From: a virus
IMG/VR virus record: IMGVR_UViG_3300042890_004365
Span: 1 to 64,000 of that record
Direction: 5' to 3' (one strand)
DNA: 64,000 bases
The translations under genes were made by a program, and so were the position numbers. The notes beneath the pieces are model-generated. The model made no database searches. It was given only the letters and a program-made list of their open reading frames with translations, and was not told where the DNA came from. Shown here in pieces: positions 7,864-62,816 of this stretch; positions within the stretch are counted from its first letter, which is position 1, and every line of letters begins with the position of its first letter.

Positions 7864-10062
7864 ATGGCTATATTAGGCGGTTCTCCACTTGGTCTTATCA
7901 ATACTAGAAGTTTGCCAAAATCTGATGGTATGACAACGTTTAATGGTGGTACCAGTAGAAAAATATCAGTAAACGCATATAATAATGCAACTAATGGTCA
8001 AATGGGTCAAACAGGAAATTTTACTGGTGCTGTAGGTACTAGATCGTTATTTAGTGGATCTGCGTCTGCATCGGTTGCACCTTATGGTAATGTTGGTAAG
8101 TTAGGAACAACAAATGGTGGTGGTATGGATATGTCAGGACCTTATAAAGGTATTAAAAGAAGTAGTTTACATAATAATACTGTATATGATATGAGTTTAT
8201 TAAATATTATTGAACAACTATCTGGTACACAAGCAGAATTGAGACCTTCTGACTTTGCTTATCTTAAAGATGTTGGAGTTTTTCCTAATAATAGACTAAT
8301 GATCGCAAGAAGATTTGCATCACCACATAATGATAATATTTTTCTTAAAGGATTAGCAACTGGACAACCACTTGCTATTATGATTTCTTGGAAACCACAA
8401 GGAGAAGATTTCGTAAAAATATCATTTGGTGAAAAGTGGGAGAATGCAGAAGCGGACTTTAAAAGTGTACTGGATTCTTTAGGACAAGATTTCCTAGGTA
8501 AAGAACTTGGTCAAAAAATTGGTGGTGCCGTAGCAGTTGTACCTTTACCTGGCTTTACAGAAACAATACAAAGAGTTGTATTACAAAAATTAGGTATAAT
8601 TGATGATAGTCTAGAAACTCCGTTACCATCTGGGAATCCGAACCTTATTAAAATGGCAAAAAGAAGACAAACTATTAAGAGTGAGGCTGAAGGATCGGGT
8701 TTAAATTGTACAGTTTCTATAACGATGAATTGTGAATGGGAACAAAAGTTTATATCTGGTATTGATCCAACTATTGTATGGCAAGATATTATAGGTAAAA
8801 TACTAACATTTTCAACATCTAGAAGTAATAACTATGGATTAAAAAAATCTTTTGAGGATAGAGTTAAAATATGGATGGATCATCCAGAACGAATTGTTAA
8901 AGACATGGTTGAGTTTATCAAAGCAGGACTGGAACAAGCAAAGAAAGAGATTGGTGAAATGATTGCGAAGCTTCCTACAACTTCTGATTCTGGTACTTCT
9001 GGTACTTCTGGTTCTTCTGGTACATCAGAAGATGCGAATTCTTTGTTGAAAAAAGCGGCAGAGTCAACTCTAAATTTTATTGATAAAATTCTACCTAACT
9101 TAGCAAGACAACTTAATAAATATAAAGTTGCAATTGAGGGTATAGCAAGAGCACTTAGTGGTGCACCTTCTACACCTTGGCATATTACAATTGGTAATCC
9201 TTTGAGACCTATTTTTTGTTCGGGGGATATGTATATGGATCAAGATTTGGCATTAGATTTAGGACCTACATTGGCATTCAATGATTTACCATCAAATATA
9301 AAAGCATCATTTACTTTAACTAACGCAAGACCTTGGGGTCTACAAGAAATTGCTGCAAAGTTTAATGCAGGTTCTATTAGAGTTGTTACTATCGTTAAAG
9401 ATGCCAATGATCTAAATCAGGGAGAAACACTTCAAGATCAGATTTATGTCACACCGACAACTGGATCCAAGACAAATCCTACAAATACTACAGCGACTAC
9501 TAATGCGGTAGCTGGTGCGGCAGCTCCTGGTGCAGTAGCAGGCGTAGCCGGTGCAACTGTTCCTACAACTGTACCTCAAGTTCCACCTGCGATAGCGACA
9601 GTTGCTGCAGGTCCTCAATTACCACCCCCTGTTCCTACATTCGCAAATAATTTCAATACCGATATTAGTACGGCAGCTCCTAATTTAACTGCAGGAGCTG
9701 CAGCTAATGCAGCTAGTGCACAAAATAGTTTAGATGGTGTTACTACCGCAGTAAATAGTGGACAATCTCAAGCAGAAGCTTTGGCTGCCAGGGCAACGGC
9801 AGCGGCTAATGAGGCAGCAGTTGCTGCAGGTACTGCACTACCTGCATTACCCGAGCTTCCCGCAGTAGGTACGGTAGCTAATAATGCGGTTGCTGCCGCA
9901 CAGAATGAAGTTGCAACAGTTGGTGCAAATGTAAGTTCAACAGCGGCTACTGCGACAGGTACAGTAAAAGAATCGGTTAATAGTGAAACGATAGTACCAG
10001 ATGCAAACTCATCAGTAGGAACAACATTACAAAACATAAATTGGAGTGGTTTTGCACTTTAA
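7864..10062 (+). CDS. Virion structural protein, baseplate/tail-tube junction candidate
   Basis: The 732-residue product is Gly/Ser/Asn-rich at the N terminus, has a globular middle, a short GTSGTSGSSGTS linker near residue 380, and then a segment PWHITIGNPLRPIF followed by LALDLGPTLAFNDLPS that resembles the conserved part of T4-type tail-tube junction proteins (gp48/gp54 class). The last ~200 residues are a low-complexity Ala/Thr/Pro/Val run. It heads a plus-strand operon with the LysM-like baseplate protein and the VanY-like protein. The structural assignment is from context and that one segment. Confidence 0.5.
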   Translation: MAILGGSPLGLINTRSLPKSDGMTTFNGGTSRKISVNAYNNATNGQMGQTGNFTGAVGTRSLFSGSASASVAPYGNVGKLGTTNGGGMDMSGPYKGIKRSSLHNNTVYDMSLLNIIEQLSGTQAELRPSDFAYLKDVGVFPNNRLMIARRFASPHNDNIFLKGLATGQPLAIMISWKPQGEDFVKISFGEKWENAEADFKSVLDSLGQDFLGKELGQKIGGAVAVVPLPGFTETIQRVVLQKLGIIDDSLETPLPSGNPNLIKMAKRRQTIKSEAEGSGLNCTVSITMNCEWEQKFISGIDPTIVWQDIIGKILTFSTSRSNNYGLKKSFEDRVKIWMDHPERIVKDMVEFIKAGLEQAKKEIGEMIAKLPTTSDSGTSGTSGSSGTSEDANSLLKKAAESTLNFIDKILPNLARQLNKYKVAIEGIARALSGAPSTPWHITIGNPLRPIFCSGDMYMDQDLALDLGPTLAFNDLPSNIKASFTLTNARPWGLQEIAAKFNAGSIRVVTIVKDANDLNQGETLQDQIYVTPTTGSKTNPTNTTATTNAVAGAAAPGAVAGVAGATVPTTVPQVPPAIATVAAGPQLPPPVPTFANNFNTDISTAAPNLTAGAAANAASAQNSLDGVTTAVNSGQSQAEALAARATAAANEAAVAAGTALPALPELPAVGTVANNAVAAAQNEVATVGANVSSTAATATGTVKESVNSETIVPDANSSVGTTLQNINWSGFAL

Positions 10063-36977: not shown

Positions 36978-37059
36978 AATGATTATATCAAAGTTGATAA
37001 CTTTGTTTAAACTAATTTACATTTTCATGTATAACATAAGAACATTAAAAATATCTAAA

Positions 37060-38130
37060 ATGAAATTAAACAAAAAGTTTTTAAAAGAGTACTTGAATAG
37101 TACTTCTCCAACAGGGTTTGAGTATGAATTAGGTGGACAAAAAGTTTGGATGGACAATATTGAAAAGTATGTCGATTCGGTAGAACTTGATAATTATGGT
37201 ACTGCTTATGGTGTTACCGGTAATTTAGAGTCTGACTTTAAAGTTGTTATCGAAGCACACTCTGATGAAATCAGTTGGTTTGTAAACTACATTGACTCAA
37301 AAGGATATATTAGAGTTATTAGAAATGGTGGCTCTGACGTACAAATTGCTCCTTCTATGAGAGTAAATCTATGGGGTGAAAAGGGTGCCGTTACAGGTGT
37401 CTTTGGACATCCAGCGATACATATCTCTGATAGAAAGAAAGAGGTTGATTTAAACTCAATTTTTATCGATATTGGTGCTTCTTCAAAAGAAGATGTTGCT
37501 AAAATGGGTATTAAAGTTGGTACAGTAGTTACTTTTAAAGATGAGTTGATGAAACTTGGTAACGATTACTACTCTGGTAGAGCTCTTGACAACAGAATTG
37601 GTGGTTTTATGATTGCCGAGGTTGCAAGAAAATTGAAAGAGAAAGGTAAAAAACTACCATTTAAACTTTACATTGTTAATTCTGTTCAAGAAGAAATTGG
37701 ATTACGTGGTGCTGAAATGATTGCACACACAATTAAACCAAATGTTGCTATTGTAACTGATGTTTGTCATGAAACATCATCACCTTGTTATACCGCAAGT
37801 AAACAAGGAGATCACATTGCTGGTGATGGAGGTGTTATTACAAGAGGTCCTGCAGTTCATAATAAATTGAGAAAATTGATTTTGGATACCGCAACGGCTA
37901 AAAAAATCCCTCACCAGTTAGCAGCATCTTCAAGATCAACTGGAACAGATACTGATGCGTTTGCTTATGCAAATGGTGGTACTCCTTCGGCACTTATTTC
38001 ACTGCCATTGAAATATATGCACACAACGACTGAGACTGTTCATAAGAATGATATTAAAAATGTTATAGAGTTGATTTATGAGACTCTTCTAAATATTGAA
38101 GAGAATCATAATTTTAAATACAACTCTTAA
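37060..38130 (+). CDS. M42-family metalloaminopeptidase
   Basis: I start at MKLNKKFLKEYLNS (37060) since M42 enzymes begin with this helix; a longer reading frame reaches back to 36979. Motifs: EAHSDEISW (metal His and Asp), SGRALDNRIGG (bridging Asp), SVQEEIGLRGA (catalytic Glu pair), VTDVCHE (Asp) and MHTTTETV (His). These are the M42 (glutamyl aminopeptidase/deblocking, TET-forming) ligands. It trims N-terminal residues from peptides. Together with ClpP and the two clan-MH proteins at 54431 and 56341 it may turn host protein into amino acids. Confidence 0.85.
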   Translation: MKLNKKFLKEYLNSTSPTGFEYELGGQKVWMDNIEKYVDSVELDNYGTAYGVTGNLESDFKVVIEAHSDEISWFVNYIDSKGYIRVIRNGGSDVQIAPSMRVNLWGEKGAVTGVFGHPAIHISDRKKEVDLNSIFIDIGASSKEDVAKMGIKVGTVVTFKDELMKLGNDYYSGRALDNRIGGFMIAEVARKLKEKGKKLPFKLYIVNSVQEEIGLRGAEMIAHTIKPNVAIVTDVCHETSSPCYTASKQGDHIAGDGGVITRGPAVHNKLRKLILDTATAKKIPHQLAASSRSTGTDTDAFAYANGGTPSALISLPLKYMHTTTETVHKNDIKNVIELIYETLLNIEENHNFKYNS

Positions 38131-38135
38131 AAAAC

Positions 38136-38162
38136 AACCCATCTTTTTAAAAAGATGGGTTT
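38136..38162 (+). terminator. Intrinsic terminator
   Basis: AACCCATCTTTTTAAAAAGA hairpin closing to GATGGGTT, followed by T residues. Confidence 0.85.
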
Positions 38163-38166
38163 TTTA

Positions 38167-38177
38167 TTTAATATATA
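38167..38177 (+). promoter_or_regulatory. TTTAATATATA promoter-like motif
   Basis: Exact copy ending 5 bases before the ATG at 38183. Confidence 0.55.
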
Positions 38178-38182
38178 GTAGT

Positions 38183-39247
38183 ATGATTAGTAAGTACAAC
38201 CAATTTTTAATAAACGAATCTAAACTTATACTAGAAGCATTTTTAAGTGCAGATACAAGTTTTTTATCTAAATTAGATAAAATTTCAAGACAGTCAAATT
38301 TTTCCTCTACAATTGCGGATATGCTTTTATCAAGAATTAATGATAAAGACTGGGTTTCTGAGGTGGATCTAAAACAAGATTTCTTTAAAACAACTGATGA
38401 TAAAGACAAAGTATCTTTTATTCAAACAAATAGAGTAAAAGATGATGTAGATCCATATACAATGGCTGGTAGAAGTGATCTTAAAGTTGGTAGAGCTATA
38501 AAATATATAGCAAAAGATTTATATGACATTAAAATCACTGATAAACAAATAGAAGATTTTGTAAATGTTTATAAATCAATTGCAGATGAAGGAGAAGATG
38601 ATTTTAGATTTTATGTTGGTGATGAAATAAAATCAGGTTATATCGAAAAAAACTACTCTGATGCAAATTATGGAACTCTTGGTAGTTCTTGTATGACCGG
38701 ACATCCATCATTTCTTAAAATATACACTAAAAATGAAAAGAAAGTTAGATTACTAGTTCTTCTCGAAGATGGTAAAATATGTGGTAGAGCTTTAGTTTGG
38801 AAATTAGATAAATCTCCTTGTGATGCAGAATATTTTATGGATAGGGTTTATACAAACCGTGATTACGAAGTAAATAAATTTACACAATATGCTGAGAAAA
38901 ATGGTTGGTTATACAAACAAAGTATGACTTGTGGTGATTCTTGGGCAGTAAAGTTTAAATATAATAGGAAAGAAGTATTAGGAGAAATATCTGTTAAGAT
39001 AGATGGTAAACATCCTAAATATCCTTATATGGATACCTTATTTTGTTTAAATAAAGATAAAGATGAACTTTCTAATGTTCCTTCTTGGAAATGTTATAGA
39101 TTATGGGACACCGATGGTGATCGTGAAAGATGTGATGATTGTGATGGTAAGTCAAAAAATAAAAATCTATGTTATGGTTGTTCTGAAGGTGTAATGGTTT
39201 TAAAACAAGCAGGTATTGAAATAGACGTTGAGAAAGGAAGAAGTTGA
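38183..39247 (+). CDS. Phage protein of the GTLGSSCM family, tagged
   Basis: The start at 38183 gives MISKYNQFLINESKLI, a capsid-targeting-like element with INE before Ser; in-frame codons upstream run through the terminator. The core YGTLGSSCMTGHPSFLKIY, then KICGRALVWKL and FMDRVY, recurs in the product of 51438-52580 (SLGGSCMTDKLSYLDLY, FVGRCLVWTT, IMDKPY). Function is unknown. The C terminus holds a zinc-knuckle-like cluster (CDDC then CYGC). Only this copy has the tag, so one paralogue may be packaged and the other cytoplasmic. Confidence 0.65.
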   Translation: MISKYNQFLINESKLILEAFLSADTSFLSKLDKISRQSNFSSTIADMLLSRINDKDWVSEVDLKQDFFKTTDDKDKVSFIQTNRVKDDVDPYTMAGRSDLKVGRAIKYIAKDLYDIKITDKQIEDFVNVYKSIADEGEDDFRFYVGDEIKSGYIEKNYSDANYGTLGSSCMTGHPSFLKIYTKNEKKVRLLVLLEDGKICGRALVWKLDKSPCDAEYFMDRVYTNRDYEVNKFTQYAEKNGWLYKQSMTCGDSWAVKFKYNRKEVLGEISVKIDGKHPKYPYMDTLFCLNKDKDELSNVPSWKCYRLWDTDGDRERCDDCDGKSKNKNLCYGCSEGVMVLKQAGIEIDVEKGRS

Positions 39248-52580: not shown

Positions 52581-52608
52581 AAAAAGCTTAGAGAAATCTA
52601 AGCTTTTT
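52579..52608. terminator. Bidirectional intrinsic terminator
   Basis: AAAAAAGCTTAGA/TCTAAGCTTTTTT hairpin overlapping the ends of the two convergent genes. Confidence 0.85.
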
Positions 52609-53107
52609 TGTCTTTAAATAAAACATCAAAAAGATTTGGTTTTTTAGTACCATTTAATTCACTTCTTATATCCATTAGGAGTTTACCTAATTTATTTTTA
52701 CCTTTACCCGCACATTTTTCACAAGTACATTGACCATAGAAATTATCGTGCCAATAATTCCCTTCAATAATCTCTTTATTTTCAGTCATTAGTAACATTT
52801 CTTTTAATGTTTCATCTTTGAACTTTTCTTTAACTGCCCATTCCATAAATCCAAATTTCTTTGAATCCCACTCAGATCTTACTTTTATAACTTTTCCTAG
52901 TTGTTTTGCTTTACCAGGTGCCATATTAGAAACTAGTTCTCTAAAATCAGCAGCAGTATAGTATTTACCATCAATCATTTGATCATTATTACACTTCATT
53001 GCAACATAGTATGTTTCAACACTATTGTAAGTAATACCTTGGTATTCTATTTTACATGGATAGAAGTTCGATAAAAAACCATACCTACCATCAAATTTTG
53101 TTATCAT
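52598..53107 (-). CDS. NADAR-domain protein (YbiA/RibX-like)
   Basis: The sequence follows the NADAR family closely: YGFLSNFYPCKIEYQG, TYNSVETYYVAMKC, KAKQLGK and GNYWHDNFYGQC. NADAR proteins are N-glycosidases; family members hydrolyse riboflavin intermediates or remove ADP-ribose from guanine in DNA. Phage copies may counter NAD+- or ADP-ribosylation-based defence (inference). A CEKC pair near the C terminus is an addition. It is adjacent to the tmRNA but separately terminated. Confidence 0.75.
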   Translation of the reverse strand: MITKFDGRYGFLSNFYPCKIEYQGITYNSVETYYVAMKCNNDQMIDGKYYTAADFRELVSNMAPGKAKQLGKVIKVRSEWDSKKFGFMEWAVKEKFKDETLKEMLLMTENKEIIEGNYWHDNFYGQCTCEKCAGKGKNKLGKLLMDIRSELNGTKKPNLFDVLFKDKKA

Positions 53108-53123
53108 AATTTTATATATTTAT

Positions 53124-53148
53124 AAAAAAACCCACTCAATGAGTGGGA
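53124..53148 (-). terminator. Intrinsic terminator of the tmRNA transcript
   Basis: On the minus strand, CCCACTCATTGAGTGGG followed by seven T; it lies about 10 bases after the predicted 3' end of the tmRNA. Confidence 0.85.
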
Positions 53149-53157
53149 ATTTTGTTG

Positions 53158-53535
53158 TGGAGATGACGTTGTACTGCCCAACGTGTCTTTCTCAGTTAAA
53201 AATAACTATTCGTTTACAAGTTTAGTAAGTTTTTCTAAGTCTTACAAAATAATTAGTTTTTGAATCTCAAACTACTAATAAAAAGGTTTCACTTTTAAAC
53301 TGGTGAACACAGCTGTAGAATTTTTGGTGTATTAGTCTTATTTGATTAAGCTACTACTAAATCTCTGTTAGAGATCAAATTGTTTTGTAAGCAAGCTACT
53401 AAATCTTCACTTGTTCCTACTTGATTAACGTTGCCGTTTAAAAATGTACCATCTAATTTATTAATCGGTCATTGTAGGCCACCCGATACTTGCATAATCA
53501 TCCTTAGTCCGCAAATCAATTCTAAAAACACCCCC
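53158..53535 (-). ncRNA. ssrA: Probable transfer-messenger RNA (tmRNA) with atypical long tag
   Basis: The ~470 bases between two genes encode a 378-nt RNA with tmRNA architecture. Its ends GGGGGUG (53535-53529) and CAUCUCC (53165-53159) form a 7-bp acceptor stem with a G3-U70 pair and A73, the alanine identity elements. A long P2-like helix pairs 53488-53506 with 53197-53209 and 53216-53221 (19 bp, one internal loop). A stem AUCGG/CCGAU (53483-53487/53464-53468) sits where the first pseudoknot belongs. Then an open frame starts at GGC (53435), reads GNVNQVGTSE..., ends RDLVVA and stops at 53346: 29 codons, versus about ten normally. Odd points: the T-arm loop GGCAGUA is not canonical, and CCA is not encoded. 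It has its own promoter motif and terminator. Confidence 0.75.
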
Positions 53536-53553
53536 AGGATTAAATATATATAT

Positions 53554-53564
53554 TATATATTAAA
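53554..53564 (-). promoter_or_regulatory. TTTAATATATA promoter-like motif for tmRNA
   Basis: Exact minus-strand copy, 18 bases before the predicted mature 5' end at 53535. As this gene is non-coding, the motif here supports a promoter role rather than a translation signal. Confidence 0.6.
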
Positions 53565-53576
53565 AGTGTAAAAGGT

Positions 53577-54409: not shown

Positions 54410-54432
54410 GTTATAAAAACTCACTTTTTTTT
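54400..54432. terminator. Bidirectional intrinsic terminator
   Basis: AAAAAAGTGAGTT/AACTCACTTTTTT hairpin between convergent genes; it includes the stop of the small gene. Confidence 0.8.
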
Positions 54433-55708
54433 AGTCAAGAACATTATCAGTAAACCACTTAATAACTAACTCTTTTGGTATCACATCACCATAATACTCT
54501 GTATATTGTTCACCACCTTTTTTAATGACGTATGACGTATCATCTGTGTTGATACTATCAAAGTATTTAACATACTCTTCAAAGCTCTTAAAACGCATCC
54601 CTAATACACTCACAGAGTCGTCATTAAATATCATCATCTTATAATCATCTGGACTAATATCAATACCAAATAGATTTCCTAAATATGTATTTAATTTTTT
54701 AACATCTTTGAAATCAAATTTAACATCTTTTTGACCTTCGATTTGAACTAAAATATCATCTAAAATGGTTACTTTAATATCAACATCTTCAAACCAAGTA
54801 TTAAATACAAGAGTATCAGTGTTATATGTATCATACTCTAATGTATTTGTATGTAGTAAGTCATATTTATTTAAAATACTTTTAACTTCTTTTACAACAC
54901 TCTTATTAGAGAAACGATGTCTTGGTGCAATTTTATATTTTGGCTCAAAATAAGTTACTTTTCTTTCAGTTGGTAAGTTCTCCCAATCAATTTTACACGC
55001 GGCTTCTGCAACTTTTTTAGTGTAAGATAAATCTACATACTCTGTTTTATAGTGTTCATTCCATCCACCAGCACTAATGTTGGTACATTCTGGAATAATG
55101 TCTAAGAAAGTCGCAGTATCTGTATAATAAGCATTTGGATCTGGTTTAGATTCAACACCTAAGTTAGTTAGTTCATCTGATAAAGCATCTGCAAAATCAA
55201 TAGAACAACAAAATCTACCTTTCTGTCTTAGTACAACAGAACCTGTTTGTTTTCTATCAAATGCAACTGCTCTTTTAAATTTTTTGAAGAATTCTGGGTT
55301 TGCTTTTAAAGCATTTTGTGAACCCCATAAACCACCACTTAAAATTGGTTCTTCTCCTAAGAAGAAGTAGTAAGTTCCAGGTATTCCTTTAGAAATCATG
55401 TATAATAAAATAGACATTCCTAATTTATTATCACCACCTAATATGGTTTTTTCATCAGTTTTGATAATATCACCTTCAATAACATGATTTACTTTTTCAT
55501 ATTCGGTACAATAAGTATCTAAGTGAGTTGTGAATAATGTTTCTGAATTACCTACTTGAATATAATAGTTACCAATAGAATCTTTTTTATATCCTGTGGG
55601 TAGATATTTTTCCAATTTAGTCTCATCACCATAAGGAATTGTATATTCAGTTAGTTTCAAAAAAGTATCCTTTATATCTAAAGGATTTATACTTTCATTT
55701 TTTGCCAT
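54431..55708 (-). CDS. Clan MH metallopeptidase-like protein (M20/M28/M42 type)
   Basis: The first ~235 residues carry the co-catalytic metallopeptidase motifs: FTTHLDTY (His-x-Asp), ILGGDNKLG (bridging Asp), FLGEEP (Glu-Glu), VAFDRKQ and GGWNEHYKTE (last His). It is therefore an aminopeptidase-like enzyme. The C-terminal ~190 residues are a separate beta-rich domain. The product of 56341-57717 is a paralogue. A TATATTTG box at 55726-55733 (minus strand) resembles a Bacteroidota -7 element 18 bases before the start. Confidence 0.65.
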   Translation of the reverse strand: MAKNESINPLDIKDTFLKLTEYTIPYGDETKLEKYLPTGYKKDSIGNYYIQVGNSETLFTTHLDTYCTEYEKVNHVIEGDIIKTDEKTILGGDNKLGMSILLYMISKGIPGTYYFFLGEEPILSGGLWGSQNALKANPEFFKKFKRAVAFDRKQTGSVVLRQKGRFCCSIDFADALSDELTNLGVESKPDPNAYYTDTATFLDIIPECTNISAGGWNEHYKTEYVDLSYTKKVAEAACKIDWENLPTERKVTYFEPKYKIAPRHRFSNKSVVKEVKSILNKYDLLHTNTLEYDTYNTDTLVFNTWFEDVDIKVTILDDILVQIEGQKDVKFDFKDVKKLNTYLGNLFGIDISPDDYKMMIFNDDSVSVLGMRFKSFEEYVKYFDSINTDDTSYVIKKGGEQYTEYYGDVIPKELVIKWFTDNVLD

Positions 55709-56340: not shown

Positions 56341-57717
56341 TTATTTTAATTCTATTTTGATGGTTGTTTCGTCAAAAACAACGTAAGGGTCTGCGGTTCT
56401 GTGTTTATATAATAAACCTTGTACTTGTGATAATGTATCAAAGATAGTTTTAACATCTGCAAGATCTAAATCTATTTTAATGAATATTTTATCTTGAACA
56501 CCAACTACTTTAACATCTAAACCAAATATAGATTTTTTAACAGTATCAATTAAAGTTTTATGTTTTCTTAATAATTCTTCATTTATACCTACCTTTCTTA
56601 CAGCGGGCAATTGTGACCAATTTACTTTTAAAGAAGCTTTTGCTAATTTCTCTAAATAAGTCATATTTTGTATCTCTCTAAATGTATGTTCGTTATTATA
56701 TCCAACCGATACGTTAGTACATTCTGATATATCATCGATAAATGATGCAGAATCAGTAAATACTCCTGTTGGATCAGTAGATAAATTTAATCCACTTTTG
56801 TTATATTCTTTACAAAGTGCTGTAGCAAACTCATTTGAACAACAAACTCTACCATATTGAGAAGTAATAACCGAACCAGTTTTTCTTCTATCAAAAGAAA
56901 CACATTTTTTAACATTTTTTAAAAATTCAAATGAACTATATTCACTCGCCAAATCTCTTGAACCAATACCACCTCTTTCTTCTCCAATAAAGAAGTAATA
57001 AATACCTGGTATTTTATTTTCCATCATATATAACATTACTGCTACTCCTGCTTTATCATCTGCTCCTAATATAGATGTACCATCAGTATAAATATACTCA
57101 TCACCATCTTCTATTTTTGATAATAGTTTAGTAGGTAGTTGAGTTCTATCCGCAGTATCTAAGTGAGATGTAAACATTGTAGTATCATCTCCTGCAATTA
57201 CTTTATAATAATTTCCAAATTTATCTAATTCTAAGTCTGGTAAAAACTCTAAAACTTCAGTTTCGTGACCCATTGGGTAAGTTTTTGTTACCAATGATAA
57301 GAATGTTGAACGAACATCTTTTGGATTATAAACAAATGGTTTATGTTCAATTGGTGTACCAACTGGTTGTACTGTAACTTTTACTCCTTTTTTAAGATTT
57401 ACAATAGTAGTAGAGAATTTTCTAATACTTTCTTCATCATAAACACCAGGAAAATAGCTTCTCAAAAATGTTCCTATTTTGATATATTGTCTTCTTCCAC
57501 CTATTATAGCATCAAAGAAATAATCTGAATCAGAGATATCCAATCTTGATATATTCATATCATTGGCATATTTAGACCTAGGATCTGCCATCCAGTTAAG
57601 TTCATATGCAATATAATCATCATGATCATCTTCCATTGTAGTTAGAAGTTTTACTAACCTAGCAGAAAATGCAATCTTTATCTCATCTTCATATTTCATT
57701 TTATAATCATTTGCCAT
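56341..57717 (-). CDS. Clan MH metallopeptidase-like protein with N-terminal extension
   Basis: Residues ~130-360 match the product of 54431-55708: FTSHLDTAD, ILGADDKAGVAV, FIGEERGGIG, VSFDRRKTGS and YNNEHTFRE, keeping the metal ligands. The first ~125 residues are an extra domain (IAYELNWMADPRS ... GGRRQYIKIGTFLR) not found in the paralogue. A peptide- or protein-trimming function is inferred from the family. It has an exact promoter-like motif 21 bases upstream. Confidence 0.65.
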   Translation of the reverse strand: MANDYKMKYEDEIKIAFSARLVKLLTTMEDDHDDYIAYELNWMADPRSKYANDMNISRLDISDSDYFFDAIIGGRRQYIKIGTFLRSYFPGVYDEESIRKFSTTIVNLKKGVKVTVQPVGTPIEHKPFVYNPKDVRSTFLSLVTKTYPMGHETEVLEFLPDLELDKFGNYYKVIAGDDTTMFTSHLDTADRTQLPTKLLSKIEDGDEYIYTDGTSILGADDKAGVAVMLYMMENKIPGIYYFFIGEERGGIGSRDLASEYSSFEFLKNVKKCVSFDRRKTGSVITSQYGRVCCSNEFATALCKEYNKSGLNLSTDPTGVFTDSASFIDDISECTNVSVGYNNEHTFREIQNMTYLEKLAKASLKVNWSQLPAVRKVGINEELLRKHKTLIDTVKKSIFGLDVKVVGVQDKIFIKIDLDLADVKTIFDTLSQVQGLLYKHRTADPYVVFDETTIKIELK

Positions 57718-60044: not shown

Positions 60045-62222
60045 TTATATACTTTTGAATCTTTCCATTATTGCAGTCATCTCATTATCAGACAATTTGT
60101 CTTCTTGGATTAAAGCTTCGTGTGCTACTAATTTCTTAGTTGTAGATTCATTTTTTTTGATATTTCTAGTTCCCCAGAAATGCTCAATTTGATTTTCAGT
60201 TTTTAATACGTCCTCTGGATATAATCTAGCTTGTGACAAGATAGATTTTTTAGCAGATTCGTTTAACTGACCCCAGATTGGCTTAATGTTTTCCGGCATC
60301 AATCTGATTACTCTTTCTTCAAGAGATTCATTCTTTGTTGATAATGACTCTGCAATCAATGTAAGAACTTCTTTCTGTGTAAAATAACTACTTTCGTTTA
60401 TATGTAGTTTAACATTTTCTTGTTCTTCGTCTGATAGTGCATAAAAGCTATCAACTTGTGATTTGTTTAAGAACTTTAAAAAGTTCAAATCACTGCTTTC
60501 AGAAACTTTACGTTTTTTAGCTTCTTCAATTAATTTATTTATTGATTCAGAAAGTTCTGAGTCTTCTTCACCACTAAATTCTGGTAATTCTTGACCTTCT
60601 TCTTCTAAACCTTCGTGTTCTTCACCTTCGTGTTCTTCACCTTCGTGTCCAGCAGCAAATTCAGCAGCATCTTCAGCAAATTCTTTAGCCTCTTCAGCAA
60701 ATTCTTTAGCTTCTTCCGCGAAATCTTCGTGTCCTTCGTGTCCTGTGAATTCTTCATCTTCTCCAGCAAATTCATCATCATTTTCTTCAAAACCAGCGTC
60801 TTGTAATGTAGGGAATTGAGCTTCATCACCTTCAGCAGATTCATTTAATTTAAAACCACCATTTAATCTTTCAACGATCATTCCTTGATAAGAGATAGAT
60901 TTATCTAAACTTTCTGCAACATATTCTGAGTAAGCGATATTATCATCTAAATGTTCAGCAATGTATTCTGAGTAAGCAATGTTACCTTCAACATGCTCAG
61001 CTAAGTATTCAGAGTAAGCAATTGAGTTATCAACATTCTCAGCAATATATTCTGAGTAAGCGATGTTTTTGTCTAAGTTTTCTGCGATATATTCTGAGTA
61101 AGCAATATTCTTATCTAAGTTTTCAGCCAAGTATTCAGAATATTCAATGTTTTTGTCTAAGTTTTCAGCTAAGTATTCTGAGTAAGAGATATTTTTATCT
61201 AAGTTCTCAGCGATATATTCTGAATAATTAATGTTTTTGTCTAAGTTTTCAGCTAAGTACTCAGAGTATTCAATGTTTTTGTCTAAGTTTTCAGCAACAT
61301 ATTCAGAGTAAGCAATAGCTTTTTCTAAATTTTCTGCTAAATAATCATTGTGTTTAGCTAATTTATCAGTTGTATCTTTTAATGATTTATTTTCATTAAC
61401 TACAACTTGGATTTTGTCCGCCAAATAATCTAAATATTTAGCAACTTGTGAATTAGTATTATTTAATTCTTCATAATACTCTAACAATTGTTCCAATTTC
61501 TGTGGGCTCATATTACCTTTTGAAATTGCGTTTTTTACTTCACTTTTTGTTGAAGCAATCTCTTTAACCAAATACTGTGAATAGTCACTTAACTGTTTCT
61601 TGGTTACAAATTCATCTTTGTTCATATTGAATAGTTCATTTATTTTTGACTCGTCAGATAATTCATATATCCTAAAGTTATTTTTTTCGATTTGTCCTTC
61701 TGGGCAAAAACCTAACGATTCATTTAATACTCTAACACTCATTTTTGCCGATGCAAATCCAGGATCTGCAACAATGTCATAAGTGAAAAGTTTTTTCAAT
61801 GATACTGAACCATCTGATTCTGTTATACCAGCAGCTCTTGATGATACAAAAACTGGACATCCGTCATCAACTAATGATTTAGCTTCTTTACCCCAGTAAG
61901 TACTTAGTAATTTTATTTCTCCAGCAACAATGTTCTTTTCAGTAACAAATTCTGCTTTTGTAATAATGTGTGATGCTCTTGATAACGAAGTATCAAAAAC
62001 ATCCGGGTGATCGAATTCACCATAAACAACACCTAGGCTGCTCATTCTTTCATTCATTTCTTGTAATGCTGGTAAAAATTTCTCAGCTTGATATATCCTC
62101 TCATTACGATTCTTTATACCAAACTCAGTAAAAGTACCACCCAATACATACTCCTTATTAGTAGAGGCTGACTCTCTAATAAGCGAACTTGTTGAATTTT
62201 CTACTATTAAAACCGGTTTCAT
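60045..62222 (-). CDS. Prohead core protease-scaffold fusion (gp21-gp22-like)
   Basis: Residues 1-170 form a T4 gp21-like (S77) serine protease: His72 in YGEFDHPDV, Ser127/128 in FVSSRAAG and Asp149 in YDIVADPGF. Then come coiled-coil segments, eleven exact 14-residue repeats (293-446), an acidic Glu-rich region and a C-terminal helical domain, together resembling the scaffold gp22. In T4 these are two genes. Candidate self-cleavage sites of (I/L)xE type fall at domain borders: SLIRE-S (17), RVLNE-S (168), FKLNE-S (461), LHINE-S (~610) and GQLNE-S (~655). It lies upstream of the capsid gene. Confidence 0.85.
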   Translation of the reverse strand: MKPVLIVENSTSSLIRESASTNKEYVLGGTFTEFGIKNRNERIYQAEKFLPALQEMNERMSSLGVVYGEFDHPDVFDTSLSRASHIITKAEFVTEKNIVAGEIKLLSTYWGKEAKSLVDDGCPVFVSSRAAGITESDGSVSLKKLFTYDIVADPGFASAKMSVRVLNESLGFCPEGQIEKNNFRIYELSDESKINELFNMNKDEFVTKKQLSDYSQYLVKEIASTKSEVKNAISKGNMSPQKLEQLLEYYEELNNTNSQVAKYLDYLADKIQVVVNENKSLKDTTDKLAKHNDYLAENLEKAIAYSEYVAENLDKNIEYSEYLAENLDKNINYSEYIAENLDKNISYSEYLAENLDKNIEYSEYLAENLDKNIAYSEYIAENLDKNIAYSEYIAENVDNSIAYSEYLAEHVEGNIAYSEYIAEHLDDNIAYSEYVAESLDKSISYQGMIVERLNGGFKLNESAEGDEAQFPTLQDAGFEENDDEFAGEDEEFTGHEGHEDFAEEAKEFAEEAKEFAEDAAEFAAGHEGEEHEGEEHEGLEEEGQELPEFSGEEDSELSESINKLIEEAKKRKVSESSDLNFLKFLNKSQVDSFYALSDEEQENVKLHINESSYFTQKEVLTLIAESLSTKNESLEERVIRLMPENIKPIWGQLNESAKKSILSQARLYPEDVLKTENQIEHFWGTRNIKKNESTTKKLVAHEALIQEDKLSDNEMTAIMERFKSI
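60885..61346 (-). repeat. Eleven tandem 42-base repeats encoding scaffold units
   Basis: Exactly 11 x 42 bases encode variants of EYLAENLDKNIEYS. Each unit holds a Y-(L/I/V)-A-E word, i.e. the cleavage signature of the prohead protease, and spans two heptads of a probable coiled coil. Confidence 0.9.
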
Positions 62223-62408: not shown

Positions 62409-62816
62409 ATGCGGTTTTTTATGATCCTATCAAGAGAGATAAATGTAAAAATCACTGAGTCAAATTACAACTATTATGATGATTTAGGATATGATGTATA
62501 TATAAGTGAAGAAATTGTAATTCCAGTTGAATTACTACCAAAAGGATCACATTACAAAATCAAGTGTAAATGTGACACTTGTGGAATTGAAAAAGAAGTA
62601 ATCTATAAGAACTACTTAAAATATGATAATGATTGGGGAGATTATTATTGTAGAAAGTGTTCTGAAGTTAAAAGAAAAGAAACATTAAGAAAAAATTTCG
62701 GAGTTGATTATCCGATACAGAATAAAAAAGTTTTAGAAAAGATGAAGAAAACATTAGTACAGAAGTATGGAGTAGATAACATTTCTAAAAACAAAAAAAA
62801 ATTAAATAATGAATAA
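62409..62816 (+). CDS. Probable remnant of a homing endonuclease
   Basis: The 135-residue product (an internal ATG at 62421 is also possible) has a zinc-knuckle-like set CKCDTC ... YYCRKC and then two copies of the repeat TLRKNFGVDYPIQN / TLVQKYGVDNISKN, typical DNA-recognition repeats of phage homing endonucleases. No nuclease core follows: the frame ends after the repeats, overlapping the RNase R start by 8 bases. It is either a truncated endonuclease or a small DNA-binding protein of that origin. Confidence 0.55.
   Translation: MRFFMILSREINVKITESNYNYYDDLGYDVYISEEIVIPVELLPKGSHYKIKCKCDTCGIEKEVIYKNYLKYDNDWGDYYCRKCSEVKRKETLRKNFGVDYPIQNKKVLEKMKKTLVQKYGVDNISKNKKKLNNE

Follow-up and report, generated by a model that had tools for sequence, protein, structure and literature searches.

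Does a 378-nt element that the standard programs pass over encode a working tmRNA, and what would become of the proteins that receive its long tag? The element lies in a 64,000-nt stretch of viral DNA (the window) that belongs to a 74.5-kb virus record, itself a fragment. An initial annotation, which stated no strand, had described it as a tmRNA encoded by the phage, its tag long and rewritten. The element is on the minus strand (Table 1), and the identification holds: homology to tmRNAs called by the tools, covariation, conservation of the tag frame and the presence of SmpB in the large relatives together confirm, by comparative sequence analysis, a divergent one-piece tmRNA.

Structure and covariation of the element

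The 7-bp acceptor with G3-U70 and A73 and the overall length, as first described, were all confirmed on the minus strand. CCA is absent from the gene; the genome there reads ACAAC. The P2-like helix is likewise real, but at about 24 bp with small interruptions it is longer than the 19 bp claimed for it.

Table 1 Features of the tmRNA locus and the ClpP gene in the window
Feature	Position	Strand	Detail
tmRNA gene, G1 (53535) to discriminator A73 (53158)	53158..53535	(-)	378 nt
Acceptor 5' strand GGGGGUG	53529..53535	(-)	pairs fully with CAUCUCC
Acceptor 3' strand CAUCUCC, then A73 at 53158	53159..53165	(-)	
P2 helix 5' strand	53488..53515	(-)	covariation
P2 helix 3' strand (approximate ends)	53186..53221	(-)	covariation
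PK1-like H-type pseudoknot, immediately 5' of the resume codon	53446..53487	(-)	stem 1 AUCGG/CCGAU and crossing stem 2
Tag frame, 29 codons, GNVNQVGTSEDLVACLQNNLISNRDLVVA	53349..53435	(-)	resume codon GGC 53435-53433, UAAAC before it
Tag stop codon UAA	53346..53348	(-)	
T-arm, 6-bp stem ACGUUG/CAACGU, loop GGCAGUA	53166..53184	(-)	covariation
Intrinsic terminator CCCACTC ATT GAGTGGG T7	53124..53147	(-)	3 found vs 0.2 expected
Promoter-like element, window copy degenerate (without TTTG)	53537..53572	(-)	element of the relatives
NADAR-domain gene, directly downstream of the tmRNA	52598..53107	(-)	PF08719
ClpP peptidase, 219 aa	24765..25424	(-)	PF00574 E 2.9e-67; PDB ClpP 183 bits

Covariation was analyzed over 57 unique sequences of the family (effective number about 27 at 90%), with double compensatory changes inferred by parsimony on a tree and slid stems used as the control. 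The acceptor has 6 such changes against 0 in the slid control, the T-arm 27 against 2.7, and P2 27 over five segments against about 2. Stem 1 of PK1 has 4 double changes (control 0) with none broken, and the crossing stem 2 has 11 against 0.5; the window's own stem 2 forms three of the four aligned pairs. Across the family, acceptor pair 5 is A-U, G-U, G-C or C-G and pair 6 is U-A, A-U or C-G, while G3.U70 is constant in every complete member. An unguided stem scan gave top covariation to the T-arm, P2, PK1, hairpins within the tag and stems beyond the tag. These last covarying stems, 3' of the tag and with no topology assigned, are in the region where pseudoknots 2-4 sit in tmRNA.

The isolated core of acceptor, P2 and T-arm folds to exactly the proposed shape (z -2.19). 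The folding energy of the whole RNA is no better than that of shuffles (z -0.02) and is thus uninformative, so the structural support is comparative. Nearly all matches to the T-arm pattern in viral contigs have 6/6 stem pairing, although pairing is not part of the pattern. The same pattern in 84,980 bacterial and archaeal genomes gave 13 matches, 2 of them with 6/6 pairing; these are the only two real matches of a scan that demanded CTCCAC and missed genomes of their relatives, which belong to two groups of bacteria described below, a Melainabacteria-type order and a class of small-genome bacteria.

A phage family below the thresholds of standard tools

ARAGORN made no tmRNA call in the window, and the Rfam tmRNA models had no match there even at E 10. 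A covariance score below threshold had been named beforehand as part of a possible refutation, as had relatives without supporting compensatory changes; the window does score below threshold, but the compensatory changes are there and the identification is not refuted. By blastn, copies with 73% identity were found in two of the largest phage genomes, LR756502 (642 kb) and LR745206 (634 kb), at whose homologous loci ARAGORN also reports nothing. More than 80 related phage loci were confirmed by nhmmer, and separate DNA patterns for P2/PK1, the T-arm and the tag retrieved overlapping sets of IMG/VR contigs. A search with RF00023 of the 642-, 634-, 476- and 385-kb records gave no canonical tmRNA, only sub-threshold matches that were mostly tRNA-like or a short T-arm.

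Two diverged members of the family, L105 and L122, are both called tmRNA by ARAGORN and reach 52.0 and 49.4 bits with RF00023, whose cut-off is 47 bits; both retain the canonical T-arm GAGGG-UUCGAGU-CCCUC. Because these two pass ARAGORN and Rfam, the family can be placed among tmRNAs. Apart from them, the lineage is undetected by either tool.

Complete genomes of 634, 636, 642 and 735 kb have been described, with the largest genomes of that study all in the Mahaphage clade and Bacteroidetes predicted as hosts for phages above 634 kb (PMC7162821). The 634- and 642-kb relatives found here belong to this clade, with predicted infection of Bacteroidetes.

An exchange of D-loop and T-loop bases

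The T-loop of the window, GGCAGUA, is without UUC, and its D-loop has AG in place of GG. Within the family, D-loop AG goes with T-loop GGCRGU, and GG or UG occurs in diverged members with other loops; L106 and L113 (loop AGCGAUA/AGCGAAA, D-loop UG) break any simple rule connecting the two loops. The combination of A18 with G55 is also present in the unrelated phage tmRNAs L061, L072, L048 and L073, and in the native tmRNAs of two bacterial groups.

The first of these groups is the Melainabacteria-type order (G012 and relatives), whose native tmRNAs (L138, L148-L154) share not only D-loop AG and G at T-loop position 55 with the phage family but also the 6-bp T-stem and the GGCRGU loop. This was found in 8/8 of the tmRNAs detected in the order, and a GGCRGU T-loop exclusive to phages was rejected. 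The second is a class of small-genome bacteria (that of G013), in which G55/A18 is the rule and native tmRNAs (L155-L184) have a UGCRAUU loop with D-loop AG. Both groups differ from the phage family in that they pass Rfam, have other tags, and have mRNA and pseudoknot parts that are not detectably similar.

RF00023 accepts native bacterial tmRNAs that carry this swap (55-147 bits), so the unusual T- and D-loops do not disqualify the element as a tmRNA. Binding by SmpB and EF-Tu would have to tolerate the swapped loops, and by analogy the native bacterial tmRNAs suggest that it can. Substitutions by G in the T-loop have been reported in Reclinomonas mitochondrial and Caulobacter tmRNA, together with a possible sixth T-stem pair in Dehalococcoides tmRNA (PMC1168896).

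Unrelated phage tmRNAs with the GGCRGU T-loop were also noted (L061:756-1206, L041, L043, L065, L092, L073, L072, L048 and L090). They are Rfam-positive (51-85 bits) and ARAGORN-negative, and several have tags of at least 30 residues ending in AA; a blastn search for named cultured phages carrying them found none. Separately, L056 contains at a T-arm match (9508-9537, plus strand) an RNA that resembles tmRNA but measures only some 139 nt, with an acceptor, a GGCAGUU T-arm and a P2-like helix round a short insert that might encode MPIDNTAGIA. Neither ARAGORN nor Rfam matches this RNA.

A conserved tag of 27-29 codons

The frame of 29 codons from GGC, ending RDLVVA, was confirmed as originally read. 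A stop at the equivalent place closes the tag in every complete member, and UAAA(C/U) stands immediately 5' of a GGC, GGA or GAC resume codon in nearly all members. The alternative start at GGU 53450, which would give 34 codons, is disfavoured by this conserved context and was rejected, as a 1-nt length difference in a relative (L002) shifts its frame. The tag is 27-29 codons long in 57/57 unique sequences, with all length differences multiples of three, and the other two frames of the region contain stops in nearly all sequences. Changes within the tag are distributed 87/74/114 over the codon positions, an excess at the third, and their synonymous share is 0.35 against 0.23 expected. This points to coding constraint, kept modest by the RNA hairpins with which the tag overlaps.

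The inner segment EV....ED.V..LQNN is nearly constant over 50 sequences. The C-termini vary: the window ends in LVVA and relatives end in LATV, LATA, LEVA or LVEA, with V as the last residue in many members. An end of -LAA or near to it, as in the SsrA degron recognized by ClpXP, is absent. Tag variants ending in LVA are degraded in E. coli, and long tmRNA tags are known from a few bacteria. In the best reading of these sequences the tag is probably a degron that a Clp protease recognizes. The near-duplicate DNA words encoding SEDLVA and RDLVVA are present as pointed out earlier, but they are not significant, with 24/300 and 35/300 shuffles as good, and the suggestion that the tag grew by duplication of a shorter one is not supported.

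Promoter, terminator and neighboring genes

The hairpin and T7 tract proposed as the terminator of the gene are real. The proposed promoter motif fares less well by itself: a sigma-70 promoter scan stands at chance level (8 found, 8.3 expected). The relatives, however, share an upstream element, TTG-N17-23-TAnnTTTG, in 35/63 unique upstream regions compared with 0.16 expected by shuffling; this element resembles the Bacteroidetes promoter consensus.

The NADAR gene is a conserved neighbor in about 75 related loci, and in most loci the tmRNA is situated between structural genes and this gene. Two paralogous peptidase-like genes (phrog_4191; 54431-55708 and 56341-57717, minus strand) are positioned between the major head protein gene and the tmRNA, each with 5 matches in the 735-kb phage. 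Elsewhere in the window, a homing-endonuclease-like ORF with PHROG matches (62409-62816, plus strand) adjoins the head maturation protease gene (60045-62222), and two adjacent, slightly overlapping ORFs of 383 aa each (36979-38130 and 38096-39247, plus strand) are a possible duplication.

Partner genes in the large relatives

SmpB is encoded in all five large relatives examined, namely the 642-, 634-, 476- and 385-kb records and the 735-kb record (LR756501), and its positively charged tail is conserved in these phage copies. A Clp ATPase of roughly 710 aa is encoded in the 642-, 634-, 476- and 385-kb records, and tblastn identified a relative with 41% identity in the 735-kb record. The Clp ATPase of the 642-kb phage is closest to ClpC (799 bits) and starts at ClpC residue 155, hence without the N-domain; its VGF aligns with the VGF loop by which ClpC docks ClpP. 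The 74.5-kb record of the window contains neither SmpB nor a Clp ATPase, and since it is a fragment we infer both for this phage from the relatives.

The window does encode ClpP, for which the NCBIfam ClpP models score best, far above the head-maturation-protease model. The triad positions are present, with Ser in GLAASMAA, His in MIHQPL and Asp in GDRDYWM. ClpP was found in 4/6 records examined (the window and the 642-, 634- and 476-kb records); it was not found in the 385-kb record nor, by tblastn, in the 735-kb record.

The 735-kb phage also carries a divergent tmRNA (L263:18388-18731, minus strand; nhmmer E 1.7e-9, Rfam 21 bits) whose T-arm region contains a group I intron (RF00028, 53.2 bits). 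Its frame, GDYKMNAEDMMSIPTSLTGKVATESFVEDLVLA, has a start that recalls Bacteroidia tags; no matching acceptor 5' strand was found for this RNA.

Discussion

Together, the sequences argue strongly for a working tmRNA, and a functional giant-phage tmRNA that adds alanine plus 29 residues, 30 in place of the usual 10, its tag most likely a Clp-protease degron, is in our judgment very probable. The steps from transcription through charging and tagging to the fate of the tagged products we infer as follows. The transcript would start at its own short promoter and end at its own terminator, both RNA ends would be trimmed, and CCA would be supplied by the CCA-adding enzyme. After charging with alanine via G3.U70, the tmRNA would bind SmpB made from a gene in another part of the phage genome and, in the infected cell, enter ribosomes that have stalled on broken mRNAs. 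Such a ribosome would then add alanine, resume at GGC after UAAAC, append 29 residues ending in -DLVVA and stop at UAA. The Clp protease for which the tag would be a degron could be that of the host or one with phage ClpP and Clp ATPase.

For the choice of protease, one quite possible answer is that the long tag is a drifted degron for host Clp proteases, with phage ClpP and Clp ATPase serving otherwise. The tag C-terminus stays small and hydrophobic (-LVVA, -LEVA, -LATA, -LATV), comparable to the LVA variants, and no ClpP was found in the 735- and 385-kb relatives, which do carry SmpB and the tmRNA family. However, the near-constancy of the inner tag segment exceeds what a simple degron needs, though the RNA hairpins of the tag constrain it too, and ClpP does occur in most of the records examined.

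The phage ClpP and Clp ATPase genes give circumstantial backing to the earlier suggestion that tagging could send products to a different protease. In its fullest form, which we regard as rather doubtful, this would be a private tag-and-degrade pathway, in which the tag added by phage tmRNA and SmpB is read by a phage ClpC-type unfoldase without N-terminal domain, together with ClpP, apart from the host LAA/ClpXP route. The idea builds on gene co-occurrence, which is incomplete because ClpP is missing in 2/5 large records.

A tag that shields its product or diverts it elsewhere, or that is a peptide with a function of its own, in place of a mark for degradation, is improbable. The 27-29 residues compared with 8-10 in the sampled Bacteroidia, the conserved inner segment and the many C-termini ending in V would suit such a role. 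Nevertheless, a degron-like C-terminus is kept in many members, and the at least 30-residue tags ending in AA in other phage tmRNAs indicate that a long tag by itself need not mean a new function.

We consider it very unlikely that the RNA is a decoy, inhibiting host trans-translation by titrating SmpB, EF-Tu or alanine of the host. The tag-less RNA of phage DS6A is a reported precedent (PMC11915505, PMC4131195), and the divergent tRNA-like domain would accord with it, but a decoy would have no need of the frame, resume site, stop and PK1, all of which are conserved, and these phages bring their own SmpB. That the element is not a tmRNA at all, but a structured RNA of some other kind or a short mRNA that looks like a tRNA by chance, is hardly credible, as the lack of a tool match in the window and the uninformative folding energy are outweighed by ARAGORN- and Rfam-positive homologs, covariation, the invariant G3.U70 with an alanine-type discriminator and SmpB in 5/5 large relatives.

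The predicted tmRNA, with its Clp-degron tag as the favored reading, resembles the one-piece tmRNA of Bacteroidia (ssrA, RF00023) in its 7-bp acceptor with G3.U70, T-arm, long P2, PK1, UAAAC-type context, Gly/Asp/Ala-type resume codon, stop in a hairpin region and own terminator. Tags in the Bacteroidia sample (GENNYALAA, GDYNYALAA) start with Gly, Asp or Ala, and the phage tags share the Gly/Asp start. In contrast to the 8-10 residues and A(L/M)AA ends of the Bacteroidia tags, the phage tags have 27-29 codons and end in LVVA, LATV or LEVA. The phage D-loop AG and GGCRGU T-loop on 6 bp differ from the GG/UUC combination on 5 bp in the Bacteroidia sample, and the phage family, except L105 and L122, falls below tool thresholds.

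Phage-borne tmRNAs are known from mycobacteriophages Bxz1 and Wildcat, Bacillus phage G and Melnitz (PMC4131195, PMC9004378); unlike the present lineage, they came to light through ARAGORN or another standard search. SmpB and ARAGORN-detected tmRNAs have been reported in huge phages in a data set that includes the 642- and 634-kb genomes (PMC7162821), but that study relied on ARAGORN, which finds nothing at their loci; its main text makes no mention of Clp proteins. Among open-licence papers we found nothing specific on phage tmRNA together with Clp. Phage tmRNAs, SmpB in huge phages and G-type T-loops (PMC1168896) were thus already known; relative to this literature, the overlooked tmRNA lineage, its conserved 27-29-residue tag and its co-occurrence with a Clp ATPase/ClpC and ClpP are new.

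Standard tools overlook this lineage, so giant phages are underrepresented in surveys of phage tmRNAs. The coordinated change from G18/U55 to A18/G55 in the D- and T-loops of phage and bacterial tmRNAs offers a natural experiment on the requirements of SmpB and EF-Tu, and it yields patterns for locating further hidden tmRNAs. The combination of tmRNA, SmpB and Clp ATPase, often with ClpP, makes the question of why phages carry tmRNA a concrete one, namely who degrades what in infection, and these viruses may tag and destroy proteins by a pathway of their own.
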